Assembly (NCBI GenBank): GCA_001797815.1 | Contig: MGQK01000064.1 | Span: 7,982-20,352, forward strand | Length of the DNA: 12,371 nt | Direction of reading: 5' to 3' | Source of the DNA: Deltaproteobacteria bacterium RBG_13_61_14 | GTDB taxonomy: Bacteria > RBG-13-61-14 | Shown here: one piece after another, positions 1-5,656 of the stretch | Position numbering within the stretch: position 1 is the stretch's first letter | Layout of the letters: the number at the start of each line of letters is the position of its first letter | The notes under the pieces: generated by a model | Databases searched by the model: none | Told to the model about the DNA's origin: nothing | What the model saw: only the letters and a program-made list of their open reading frames with translations | Translations under genes and position numbers: made by a program

Positions 1-358
<358 letters not shown>

Positions 359-463: not shown

Positions 464-492
464 TTGACACTGCGGGCCGTGGGATTTAGGAT
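464..492 (+). promoter_or_regulatory. Sigma70-like promoter upstream of the Gfo/Idh remnant and methyltransferase
   Basis: A perfect TTGACA (464-469) is followed after 17 bp by TAGGAT (487-492, 4 of 6 consensus). Transcription would start near 499, cross the 7-bp hairpin CCTCTCT-cca-AGAGAGG (522-538) and the oxidoreductase remnant, then enter the methyltransferase gene at 759 with a leader of about 260 nt. Confidence 0.55.
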
Positions 493-545: not shown

Positions 546-731
546 CGTGAGCATTCAAGATCGGGTGGCGGGGACCGGCAGATGCACGTCTTGGTGGAGG
601 AGCTGCTGGGAAAGACGGCCCCTGGCGAGCCGAGCCCCTTGGCCGGTGGTCTGGACGGCCGGCGGGCCATGGCAGTGGTCCTGGGCGCCTACGCATTTTC
701 CGAGCGGGCCGGAAAGGGTTATGAAAAGTAA
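546..731 (+). pseudogene. C-terminal remnant of a Gfo/Idh/MocA-family oxidoreductase
   Basis: One reading frame from about 546 to the TAA at 729-731 encodes about 61 residues. They contain SRSGGGDRQMHVLVEELLG and SPLAGGLDGRRAMAVVLGAY, then an acidic/basic tail ending GKGYEK. This order (a GGGD turn, a helix, an SPL..G.DGLRA-type final helix) resembles the C-terminus of Gfo/Idh/MocA NAD(P)-dependent sugar oxidoreductases, which are usually about 330-400 residues. No Rossmann domain is present upstream, an in-frame stop lies at 492-494, and the first ATG (582) lacks a Shine-Dalgarno sequence. The reading is therefore a decayed gene end, not a working enzyme. It ends 27 nt before the methyltransferase, as an intact upstream operon gene would. 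The family assignment is from remembered motifs; the alternative is a short unrelated ORF. Confidence 0.55.
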
Positions 732-758: not shown

Positions 759-2285
759 ATGGTTTACATCCCAGGATTCTTGGTGAACAAGGTCTACGAA
801 CGCGGAAGTTTAAGAAACACCGACGAGGGGTTCGAATTCAGCTTTCTCAACAACATGACGCCGATCCGAATCAGCGGGATGAGAGATATCAGCTTGGAAG
901 TGGACGGCAAGCCCTACCCCCTGGATAAGCTGACGGTATCGCTCGGCTCTCGCAGGATCGGCCTTTTCGGCGGCGAGTTTTCCGAGCACCTTCCGTTCGA
1001 TAAGAACACCCGGTTGGTCATCCGCGTGGCGGGCGAGCCGCTGTCCCCGGGCAGGCACGCCATGAAAATCAGCTTTATCACCAACGAATACGGCGGGGCC
1101 ACGCTGAAGGTGAGTGACGTAATCGGCGAAGGCGAAGCGCCTTCCTTCTGGCGTCGGCTCAAAGACCGGCTGCGGGCCGGGAGCAAAGAGGAAGAGGCTG
1201 GCCCGGTTTCGGTGGAGGGCGAACTGGGCGGCGTTCCCCTGGACCCTGATTTCTCGCGGCTTTTAGCCGCTCTTCGGCGGGAAGAGCCGGACCGGGTTCC
1301 GCTGTTCGAGGCCGAGATTGCCATTCCCATCCAGGAGTGGTTTTTAGGCCGGGAGATTGCGAACGCCCGGGATGAACTCGAGTTCTACATCCGGGCCGGC
1401 TACGATTTTGTGCCGGTGCTGCCGCCGTTTCTTACTCCCCGGCTGATGCGCACGGCCTCGGATCAGGACGGGACGCTTTCCGCCCAAGACCGGGAACGGG
1501 CCTGGTTGACCGAGAGCGAGGGTCTGATCCAGACCGTGAAGGACGTGGAAAATTTCCCCTGGCCCCGGGCGGAAGAAGTGGATTTCTCCTCGTTTGATGA
1601 GATGGCGGAGCTGCTTCCGGCCAAGATGAAGATCCTGGGGATGCTCTCGCCCGCGGCCATTTTCGGAAACGCTTCCCAGGCGATGGGACTCCAGAATTTC
1701 GCTTATGCGCTCTACGATGACTTGAAAGTGGTGGAGGCCCTGTTCGAGATCATCGGATCCGCCTATCTGAAAATCGCCCGGCGCTTAGTTCGGGCGCCCA
1801 AGCTCGGGGCGGTTTTCATGTCCGACGACCTGGCGCACAGCCACGGGCTTTTGGTCTCGCCGGTGGTCTATCGCCGCTATGTCTTTCCCTGGTATCAAAA
1901 GATCGGGGAAGTTCTGGCTGATGCGGGCCTGCCCTTTATCTTTCACTCGGACGGCCGGCTTTGGGAAGTCTTGGACGACCTGGCCGATTGCGGAATGAGT
2001 GGGATTCATCCTTTTGAACCGAAGGCGATGGATATCGTCGAGGTGAAGAGACGGTACGGCGACCGGTTCTGTCTTTTTGGCAACATTGATCTGGACTATA
2101 CCTTGACCCGCGGCTCGGTGGCGGAAGTGGAGGCGCAGGTGAAACAGAAAATTTCCCAACTGGCTCCCGGGGGTGGATACGGACTGGCCGCCTCCAACTC
2201 GATTCCGGATTATGTGAATCCGGAAAACTACCGGGCCATGGTGATGGCAGCCAAAATATATGGAAAATATCCCATCCAAGTTTAA
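759..2285 (+). CDS. UroD-family (MtaA/CmuA-like) methyltransferase with an extra N-terminal beta-rich domain
   Basis: The ATG at 759 follows GGAGAGGAGAGG, a strong ribosome-binding site; the product is 508 residues. Residues 1-122 are a beta-rich module (IPGFLVNKVYERGSLRNTDEG near the start, LEVDGKPY at 46-53, EPLSPGRHAMKISF at 93-106). This resembles the small DUF6379-type domain of C-glycoside deglycosidase beta subunits. A charged linker (about 125-157) leads to a uroporphyrinogen decarboxylase-like barrel at about 162-505. Motifs include EEPDRVPLFEAEI (175-187), HSDG (396-399), GNID (441-444) and GGGYGLAASNSIPDYV (471-486). Stand-alone UroD-fold methyltransferases transfer methyl groups to or from corrinoid proteins, and a corrinoid protein gene is divergent at 358. 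The zinc site of MtaA/MtbA (HxC plus a distant Cys) is not intact: H396 is kept but the Cys positions read D398 and Ser/Asn. True heme-pathway HemE is unlikely given the fusion and context. Confidence 0.85.
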   Translation: MVYIPGFLVNKVYERGSLRNTDEGFEFSFLNNMTPIRISGMRDISLEVDGKPYPLDKLTVSLGSRRIGLFGGEFSEHLPFDKNTRLVIRVAGEPLSPGRHAMKISFITNEYGGATLKVSDVIGEGEAPSFWRRLKDRLRAGSKEEEAGPVSVEGELGGVPLDPDFSRLLAALRREEPDRVPLFEAEIAIPIQEWFLGREIANARDELEFYIRAGYDFVPVLPPFLTPRLMRTASDQDGTLSAQDRERAWLTESEGLIQTVKDVENFPWPRAEEVDFSSFDEMAELLPAKMKILGMLSPAAIFGNASQAMGLQNFAYALYDDLKVVEALFEIIGSAYLKIARRLVRAPKLGAVFMSDDLAHSHGLLVSPVVYRRYVFPWYQKIGEVLADAGLPFIFHSDGRLWEVLDDLADCGMSGIHPFEPKAMDIVEVKRRYGDRFCLFGNIDLDYTLTRGSVAEVEAQVKQKISQLAPGGGYGLAASNSIPDYVNPENYRAMVMAAKIYGKYPIQV

Positions 2286-3456: not shown

Positions 3457-4887
3457 TCAAATGCAAGATCGGGTCCTCAGGATATCCCAGTAAGCGCCGC
3501 GCGCGCCTTTTTTAATGGCTTGCACCAGAATCCGGTTGTCGTTGTAGTTGTAGTTCCGCTCGGGGACTTCGCGGCTGGCAAAGAAGAAGCGGGGATCATC
3601 GCCGAGGAGACGGTGGAGATAAAGCTCCGGGTCGCGGCCCAGCGAGCGGGCCACGTAAAAAATCGGGAACAGGAGCTCCGGGTTGCCGTGCACCCGGCCG
3701 TGGAGGTTGGGATTCGCTTCCAGGGGGCCGGCCTCCGCGATCATCCGGGCCAGCCGGGTGCCGGGAAAGACGCGCACGCCGAAGCTCACCCCCACCCGGT
3801 CGGGCTTGAGCCGTTTCATCCCGGAAATGGTCTGGCGCATGGTGGCGCGGGTCTCGCCGGGCCCGGCCAGGAGCAGATCGAACATGACCGCGAGCTCGGC
3901 CGCGCGGCAGGCCCGCAGCGTGGCTTCGATGTCCGGGACCCGGTGATCGCGGCCCAGCCGCTCGAGTTGCTCGTCGCTCGCCGAGTCCACCCCGAAGTTG
4001 ATGCCCGCGCAACCCGCCCGGGCCATGAGCCGGGCCAGCTCCGGGTCAAAGGGCAAGGGCGCCGCATAGGTATACCACCGGACCCGCTGGTGCAGACCCT
4101 GCCGGATGATCGCCCGGCAGACCGCTTCGGCATGGGCCCGGGGAATATTGAACTCGCTGTCGCAGAGGTGGAAGGTGTGGACTCCCTGGTTCAGGAGCCG
4201 GCGCAACTCCTCGGCCACCGCCTCGGCCGGACGCCGGCGCACGCGTTTGCCCTTGGCCACCGGGTCCGCGCAATAGATGCAAGAGCGGTTGCAGCCGCGC
4301 TTGGTCTCGAGGTTCCCCTGGCCGCCTTCGCGAAAATAGCGGGCGTTCATGATCCAGCGGCGCCTCGCCGCGGGCCAGGCCGAGAGATCGGCGCAGGCGA
4401 GCGGGTTCACGGTGCCGTCCGGGAGCACCACCCCGGGAATCCGGGAGAGGCTTTTGCGGGCCAGGAGTGCGCGCAGCAATTGAGGGAACGCTTGCTCGCC
4501 GTCCCCCCGGAGGCCGATGTCCGCGCCGAGGAAGCGCAGCGCCGCGAGCGGCGCGACCGAGTATCCGACCCCGCCCAGGACTACCGGCGCCCGGGTCTCG
4601 CCTTGCAGCCAGCGCACGAGCGCGCGGATGGGGCCGAGAAGAAAAGATTGACTGGCGAAGTAGCAATCGTCCAGGTTGCGGATGGTGATCCCTACCGCGG
4701 CGGGCCGCTTTCGCTTGATCAGGCCCTGCAAGCGGGAGCGGTAGGAGGAGACAAAAGCCAGGTCGAAAAGGACCGGCTCAAACCCTTGCCGGTCCAGCGC
4801 CTCGGCCAGGTAATCCAGACCGAGCGGCCCCACTGCCGGCTTCATGCGGCTGGGGTTGATCAGCAGAACCGCCGGCCGGGAGGACAT
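3457..4887 (-). CDS. B12-binding-domain radical SAM protein, unknown substrate
   Basis: 476 residues from the ATG at 4887-4885. The frame stays open further upstream, but this start is 4 nt beyond the TAA of the hydrolase gene and gives the natural N-terminus MSSRPAVLLINPSR. Residues 1-150 form a B12-binding-like Rossmann domain (PLGLDYLAEALDRQGFEPVL, then APVVLGGVGYSVAPLAALRF and RGDGEQAFPQLL); no DxHxxG is present, as usual in this superfamily. The radical SAM barrel follows, with the cluster motif CNRSCIYC (C199, C203, C206), NFGVDSASDEQLERLGRD (297-314) and DLLLAGPGET (337-346). The C-terminus has a distinctive NYNYNDNRILVQAI...GARGAYWDIL (445-470). B12-dependent radical SAM enzymes often methylate unreactive carbons or rearrange skeletons. 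The substrate is not predictable here. Probably translationally coupled to the hydrolase. Confidence 0.88.
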   Translation of the reverse strand: MSSRPAVLLINPSRMKPAVGPLGLDYLAEALDRQGFEPVLFDLAFVSSYRSRLQGLIKRKRPAAVGITIRNLDDCYFASQSFLLGPIRALVRWLQGETRAPVVLGGVGYSVAPLAALRFLGADIGLRGDGEQAFPQLLRALLARKSLSRIPGVVLPDGTVNPLACADLSAWPAARRRWIMNARYFREGGQGNLETKRGCNRSCIYCADPVAKGKRVRRRPAEAVAEELRRLLNQGVHTFHLCDSEFNIPRAHAEAVCRAIIRQGLHQRVRWYTYAAPLPFDPELARLMARAGCAGINFGVDSASDEQLERLGRDHRVPDIEATLRACRAAELAVMFDLLLAGPGETRATMRQTISGMKRLKPDRVGVSFGVRVFPGTRLARMIAEAGPLEANPNLHGRVHGNPELLFPIFYVARSLGRDPELYLHRLLGDDPRFFFASREVPERNYNYNDNRILVQAIKKGARGAYWDILRTRSCI

Positions 4888-4891
4888 GGTC

Positions 4892-5656
4892 TTACCAGGA
4901 GTTGCGGAGCACCCGGATGGCGGCAAAACAAGCAGCAGGGTCGCTGAGGTCGAGGCTGGGAAACGAGCGCGCCAGCGCGGAGCGCAGCGCCGCCTCGGCA
5001 AACCGGAAAAAGGGGTTGTAGCGCCGCTCCTCCGCCAGCGTGCTGGCCGGAACTCCGCCCTCTGCCGCCGCCTTCCGGGCTTCGCTCAGCTTCGCCTGGA
5101 TCACGTCCGATCCCGGCTCCAGGCTGAGGGCGAAGCAAAGGTTGTTCTCCGCATAGTCGTGGCCTGGGCAAAGCCCTAGCCCGGGATCCAGGGGCAGGAT
5201 TTTCTCCCGGAAGCTTTGGTAGAGGTCGTCCACATTGCCGCCGAATAGGCAATTACCGGCACCGGCCAGGAAGACGGTGTCGCCGGTGATGAACTTGTCT
5301 TCCACCAGGTAGCAAGCGCTGCCCGCGGTGTGCCCCGGCGTGTGCAGAACCTTGACTTGGAGGGAGCCGACCTCGATCTCGGAGCCGTCGGAAAGAGCTC
5401 GAGCGCCGGTGACGCCATCCGGCGGATGAGACCAGACCGTGGCGCGGGTTGCCTCCAACAAGCGCGGGCAGCCCCCGGTATGATCGGGATGACCGTGGGT
5501 GAGGAAAATGGCAACCAGGTTCCAGCGGCCCTGGCGCAGTCGAGCCAGGATTTCCTCCGCATTCAGCGGATCCACCACCGCGGCCGCATGGGTCAGCGGA
5601 TCGCCCAAGAGGTAAGACCAATTATCGGCCCCGGCGCGAATGACCTCCCAATGCAT
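4892..5656 (-). CDS. Metallo-beta-lactamase-fold hydrolase, hydroxyacylglutathione hydrolase-like
   Basis: 254 residues from the ATG at 5656-5654. Metal-binding motifs are THGHPDH (H54, H56, D58, H59), HTPGHT (H109), GDT (D126) and GHDY (H166), a complete binuclear set. The C-terminal ERRYNPFFR (about 210-218) recalls the end of glyoxalase II proteins. The family hydrolyses thioesters such as S-lactoylglutathione, but many members act on other substrates. A longer TTG start at 5674 is possible, but it lies in the arm of the upstream terminator hairpin, whereas the ATG has AGAGGG in front of it. The radical SAM gene begins 4 nt after its stop, so the pair probably forms one transcript. It has no clear promoter of its own. 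Confidence 0.9.
   Translation of the reverse strand: MHWEVIRAGADNWSYLLGDPLTHAAAVVDPLNAEEILARLRQGRWNLVAIFLTHGHPDHTGGCPRLLEATRATVWSHPPDGVTGARALSDGSEIEVGSLQVKVLHTPGHTAGSACYLVEDKFITGDTVFLAGAGNCLFGGNVDDLYQSFREKILPLDPGLGLCPGHDYAENNLCFALSLEPGSDVIQAKLSEARKAAAEGGVPASTLAEERRYNPFFRFAEAALRSALARSFPSLDLSDPAACFAAIRVLRNSW

Follow-up and report, generated by a model that had tools for sequence, protein, structure and literature searches.

The window analysed here is a stretch of 12,371 nucleotides from Deltaproteobacteria bacterium RBG_13_61_14 (contig MGQK01000064.1). The open reading frame at 759-2285 on the forward strand encodes a single protein of 508 amino acids, the parts of which are listed in Table 1 together with the features found upstream. 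Pfam searches identified a UroD match (PF01208) at residues 290-499 (80.3 bits versus a cut-off of 23.9, E 1.8e-22), which leaves residues 1-124 outside. The best Pfam match of this N-terminal part was PF25653 (HMG-CoA_red_N), covering residues 9-122 (E 1.8e-14, 51.6-54.7 bits versus a cut-off of 27). The presence of both families on one open reading frame agreed with an initial annotation made from the sequence alone, according to which the first 120 or so residues are not UroD and form a beta domain fused to a UroD-type enzyme. The divergent corrinoid protein gene that the same annotation had placed next to the fusion was also recovered. Upstream of the fusion, the match to a sigma-70-like promoter is weak, given how many such matches are expected (Table 1).

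Table 1 Features of the fusion gene and of the DNA upstream. Positions are those of the window.
Feature	Position	Strand	Basis or remark
Corrinoid-binding protein gene, 5' part, cut by the window edge, divergent from the fusion	2..358	-	PF02607, E 1.6e-19
Match to a sigma-70-like promoter (TTGACA-N17-TAGGAT) 5' of the fusion	464..492	+	1 found versus 0.7 expected
Reading frame of 49 aa, putative Gfo/Idh "remnant", identity uncertain	582..731	+	Weak tblastn similarity
CGD-beta-like / HMG-CoA_red_N beta domain, residues 1-124	759..1130	+	PF25653, AF2 model, Foldseek, VIA
Linker, residues 125-158	1131..1232	+	Variable in length and gapped in the orthologue alignment; modelled at low pLDDT in the full-length protein
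UroD-superfamily barrel, residues 159-508, probable corrinoid:substrate methyltransferase MT1	1233..2285	+	PF01208, profile matches
H396-S397-D398, where MtaA has its His-x-Cys zinc motif	1944..1952	+	Invariant in 13 fusions; MtaA alignment
N480, at the second zinc Cys of MtaA (approximate alignment)	2196..2198	+	Invariant in 13 fusions

The N-terminal domain had been proposed to resemble the beta subunit of C-glycoside deglycosidases (CGDs), a family formerly called DUF6379 and now CGDB (PF19906). Searches with PF19906 gave the window protein 17.9-20.7 bits, below the gathering cut-off of 27.6; this cut-off was passed solely by the orthologous domain at L028/L043 (31.7 bits). A profile built from four orthologues reached the solved CGD beta subunit 9m3b_B (E 0.0022) and, more weakly, 7bvs_B, 8umc_B and 8qvc_B. 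The AlphaFold model of the domain (pLDDT 82, pTM 0.76, 11-sequence alignment) was all-beta after one short helix. When this model was compared with the PDB using Foldseek, the top 17 matches were all CGD chains (E 3.6e-7 to 1.5e-4) and the next match followed at E 1.4e-3. VIA-align comparisons over about 115 residues gave Z scores of 9.0-12.3 for CGD chains versus 6.9 or less for all others. Structure prediction, the check that the initial annotation had called for, therefore came out in favour of the DUF6379/CGDB-like fold, and the modelled domain has the beta-sandwich fold of CGD beta subunits. The full-length model reached a pLDDT of 58.8 (7-sequence alignment), and the arrangement of the two domains is therefore not readable from it.

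CGD beta subunits (DgpB, DfgB, CarC) thus share their beta-sandwich with the window domain, and their sequence kinship is detectable at the profile level (identity 12-23%); unlike them, the window domain is fused to a UroD barrel and scores below the CGDB cut-off. A chain that starts with the beta domain and continues with the barrel is already known from the single-chain CGD of Microbacterium testaceum (8un2, 8qrz; beta domain at residues 5-135 of 433-435), although its catalytic part is a CGD alpha barrel whereas that of the window protein is UroD.

Outside the fusion, bacterial HMG-CoA reductases (L024-L027) carry the same domain ahead of their catalytic part. These enzymes share the core "GSLRNTDDGF..F..N" with the window domain, which differs in being carried by UroD instead of HMG-CoA reductase and in having class-specific residues at the N-terminus and the last hairpin. 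Two copies of the domain surround an SCP2-like region in a protein of 550 amino acids, and the domain forms the end of archaeal proteins of 311 and 817 amino acids. Stand-alone proteins of about 120 amino acids occur in Chloroflexota and in many Asgard genomes; a match to the domain, mostly stand-alone, was found in 75 of 227 Asgard genomes. No relative was found on viral contigs. Because it is found in HMG-CoA reductases, SCP2-like proteins, archaeal proteins and on its own, the domain is a mobile module with a beta-sandwich related to that of CGD beta subunits, and no mark of C-glycoside metabolism.

Several of these genes have recurrent neighbours. The domain-SCP2-domain gene lies directly upstream of genes for an MttB-family methyltransferase and corrinoid proteins, an arrangement that is complete in L037 (7395-12580) and partly seen in L134 (1-2350), where the gene adjoins an MttB gene, and in L135. 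These loci are a second, separate tie of this domain to corrinoid systems. Asgard stand-alone copies (L102-L110, L119-L121) are often found near a conserved gene encoding 303 amino acids (MYVKIR.DGA.GIGR...) without a Pfam match. At other Asgard loci (L111-L113, L137-L139), the stand-alone domain is accompanied by an aminotransferase and an FGGY-like kinase and, in several cases, by an iron-ADH-like gene, all families judged by eye; this set looks as if it belonged to a sugar or polyol pathway.

The domain-UroD fusion was found at 13 loci (the window, L039-L044, L045/L136, L122 and L124-L127). It recurs at the same place in each and is therefore not a product of chance. Besides the window organism, the bacterial carriers are two relatives from its order (L041, L042), a deltaproteobacterial chromosome (L039), two Actinomycetota (L040, L044) and a member of a further phylum (L043); the remaining loci (L045/L136, L122, L124-L127) are from Asgard genomes. 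In the 13-locus comparison, identity to the window protein was 43-68% for the domain and 67-79% for the barrel, across domains of life. Phylogenetic analysis placed the Asgard fusions in one supported clade near the bacterial sequences, which suggests that the gene may have been transferred horizontally between bacteria and Asgard archaea. No description of the fusion was found in the open-licence literature on DUF6379 or on glycyl radical enzymes (GREs) with corrinoid proteins and UroD. The residues that are invariant in the fusions and not in other carriers of the domain fall partly at its N-terminus and last hairpin and include 1-2, 103, 106, 107, 113, 116 and 117; the fusions are in any case more similar to each other than to the other carriers, and this conservation is therefore weak support for a role of the domain in a substrate pocket.

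Profile searches with the UroD part reached CdmB (9rui, E 5.4e-6) and MtaA (4ay7, E 6.8e-6). Both share the UroD barrel and the profile match with the fusion, beside which a corrinoid protein is encoded; unlike these corrinoid methyltransferases, the fusion has an extra N-terminal domain and a GRE cluster as a recurrent partner. No NCBIfam equivalog cut-off was reached, with 53 bits versus 400 for MtaA and 29.5 versus 600 for MtbA. In place of the His-Cys-Cys zinc ligands of MtaA, the fusion has a His-x-Asp/Asn arrangement: H396, D398 and N480 align with the three ligands, and these residues and E420 do not vary among the 13 fusions. A thiol methyltransferase of the MtaA type was rejected, since the zinc ligands are absent. 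In O-methyl enzymes of the UroD superfamily, one or both Cys are replaced by a carboxylate or by non-ligands (PMC10418091), and CdmB functions without zinc (PMC13222342). The O-demethylases MtvB, OdmB, VdmB and MtoB are also UroD-superfamily corrinoid methyltransferases, likened to the fusion here by their description only (PMC13222342). Considering the replacement at H396/D398/N480, the zinc-free activity of CdmB and the profile matches to CdmB and MtaA, the fusion is most likely a corrinoid MT1 that acts on a methyl donor other than a thiol, similar to the O-demethylases. A methoxylated substrate would be compatible with the His-x-Asp motif. Two RACo-type corrinoid activases are encoded in the window genome, which supports the presence of corrinoid chemistry in this organism. 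The genome contains at least 18 UroD-superfamily matches, and the substrate of most of these proteins is unassigned.

Analysis of the gene neighbourhoods showed a corrinoid gene directly adjacent to the fusion, on the same strand, at 8 of the 13 loci (L040, L044, L045, L122, L124-L127); none was adjacent at L039, L041, L042 and L043. The corrinoid protein of the window matched TIGR02370 with an E value of 1.6e-30, below the cut-off. It is 62% identical to the MttB-linked corrinoid protein of L037 and 34-41% identical to those of the fusion operons, and on these identities it belongs to the MttB-linked subfamily, another than that of the fusion operons. The adjacent genes, the divergent gene of the window and the matches of the UroD profile upheld the corrinoid half of the pathway that the initial annotation had outlined, in which the breakdown of aryl C-glycosides or methoxylated aromatics is joined to corrinoid demethylation; the C-glycoside half found no support, as described below. 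The Asgard loci are mutually related, and independent neighbourhood support for the ties to corrinoid proteins and GREs therefore comes chiefly from two clades, Asgard and Actinomycetota. Two genes for B12-binding radical SAM proteins flank the region, one on each side (window 3457-5001 and L019 6144-7757).

A GRE gene adjoins 5 of the 13 fusions (L044, L124-L127), and in L127 a gene for a radical-SAM activase lies between the two. A close GRE (at least 52% identical to that of L044) was detected in 9 of 12 genomes with the fusion versus 1 of 4 genomes without it; at this threshold, none was found in the window genome, G386 or G552. The GRE beside the fusion belongs to the PFL2/glycerol-dehydratase group. 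Its best score was 483 bits, versus 678 for the broad subfamily TIGR01774, and assignment to a known class (CutC, HypD, HpsG, HPAD, IAD, PFL) was rejected since no NCBIfam equivalog cut-off was reached. Near the GRE, L156 and L158 encode a 3beta-HSD-like epimerase, an SDR, an acetoacetate-decarboxylase-fold protein and an acyl-CoA dehydrogenase; L153 and L154 have the same set minus the acetoacetate-decarboxylase-fold protein, which is found with an FAD_binding_4 oxidase in L157, L162 and L163. The fullest set, in L163, comprises GRE2, the FAD oxidase, ADC, the GRE, the fusion, a corrinoid protein, an MtaA-like UroD and a second corrinoid protein. The genes grouped around the GRE (L153, L154, L156, L158, L163) look like an undescribed anaerobic catabolic pathway. 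An SDR of the window genome (L019 5225-5995) was considered as the counterpart of the cluster SDR and rejected (32% over 187 residues). Since its corrinoid neighbour belongs to another subfamily and a close GRE is missing, the window fusion may work with partners other than those in the clustered genomes.

The initial annotation had tentatively taken the fusion as a link between C-glycoside or 3-keto-sugar deglycosylation and corrinoid demethylation, on account of the fold common to the domain and CGD beta subunits and of a presumed Gfo/Idh remnant next door. The remnant amounts at best to a 49-codon frame: within the frame 495-731, the part M582-731 showed weak tblastn similarity to the C-termini of Gfo/Idh proteins from the same genome (E 0.012-0.08, ten-sequence database) and no Pfam match. 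In published CGDs, the alpha and beta genes lie side by side (PMC8563793). Near the fusions, no match to PF01261, the CGD alpha family, was found within about 40 kb at the ten loci covered (L039-L048), the nearest on a fusion contig being about 44 kb away (G390). PF01408 had no match on the contig of the window, and Gfo/Idh queries from the same genome had none in the fusion neighbourhoods. The fusion was the sole match to PF19906 in the window genome, with no separate CGD beta subunit. The searches for PF01408, PF01261 and PF19906 around the fusions and in the genomes thus lent the C-glycoside link no support, and the survey of neighbourhoods that the annotation had proposed went against it. 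The barrel is moreover UroD and not CGD alpha, and the best Pfam match of the domain is another family. We consider a role of the fusion in C-glycoside or 3-keto-sugar breakdown highly improbable.

We propose instead that the fusion is a UroD-type corrinoid MT1 in which the CGD-beta-like N-terminal domain completes the substrate pocket, often within a catabolic cluster, and we give this proposal an even chance of being correct. Of its elements, we observed the fold of the domain, the fusion and its spread, the corrinoid and GRE neighbourhoods and the loss of the His-Cys-Cys zinc motif; that a methyl group is transferred, what kind of substrate donates it and that the domain contributes to the pocket are what we infer. 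The barrel would bind a methylated substrate, probably O-methylated or otherwise non-thiol, and the methyl group would be passed to the corrinoid protein. Located at the barrel mouth, the N-terminal domain would complete the pocket, much as the CGD beta subunit does for the TIM barrel of its own enzyme. The remaining skeleton would, in many hosts, be processed by the GRE, SDR/3beta-HSD-like reductases, the acetoacetate-decarboxylase-fold protein and the acyl-CoA dehydrogenase. CGDs have their active site between barrel and beta subunit, and the N-terminus and beta7-beta8 loop of the latter contact the aglycone (PMC8563793); by analogy, a pocket-forming role is our leading reading for the N-terminal domain. 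The role of the domain may instead be generic, since the domain occurs on HMG-CoA reductase, which is not a TIM barrel, beside an SCP2-like domain and often alone.

In an alternative that is possible though rather doubtful, the protein is a corrinoid methyltransferase, but its N-terminal domain takes no part in binding the substrate and serves only for oligomerisation or for docking, with the corrinoid protein or the GRE as conceivable partners. The range of other carriers, from HMG-CoA reductase and SCP2-like proteins to the two archaeal proteins and the stand-alone copies, would suit generic interaction, as would the position of the domain-SCP2-domain gene directly before the MttB and corrinoid genes (L037) or beside MttB (L134). 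However, in CGDs, the closest relatives of known structure, this fold contributes to the active site (PMC8563793); the class-specific conservation of the fusions also lies partly on elements equivalent to those that make contacts in CGDs. It is improbable that the UroD part is a decarboxylase or another UroD-fold enzyme with incidental corrinoid neighbours. It is true that the protein lacks a thiol-type zinc motif, falls far short of the curated MtaA and MtbA cut-offs and has no corrinoid gene beside it at four of the fusion loci. Corrinoid genes are nevertheless neighbours of the fusion in two clades far apart, Actinomycetota and Asgard, the profile of its UroD part matches both CdmB and MtaA, and CdmB itself functions without zinc (PMC13222342).

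UroD-type corrinoid methyltransferases are abundant in anaerobes, and we know of no substrate for most of them. Tentatively, the gene sets described here could represent a conserved and apparently undescribed module, spread over several bacterial phyla and Asgard archaea, in which corrinoid demethylation by a UroD methyltransferase that has gained a CGD-beta-like pocket domain would be combined with radical cleavage of the same substrate by an uncharacterised GRE class. With the GRE as a partner, candidate substrates are confined to compounds that require both demethylation and radical cleavage. A pocket-shaping domain of another TIM-barrel enzyme, fixed on one UroD clade, would offer a way to approach specificity. 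The CGD beta fold is no marker of C-glycoside metabolism, which calls for caution when annotations are transferred in either direction.
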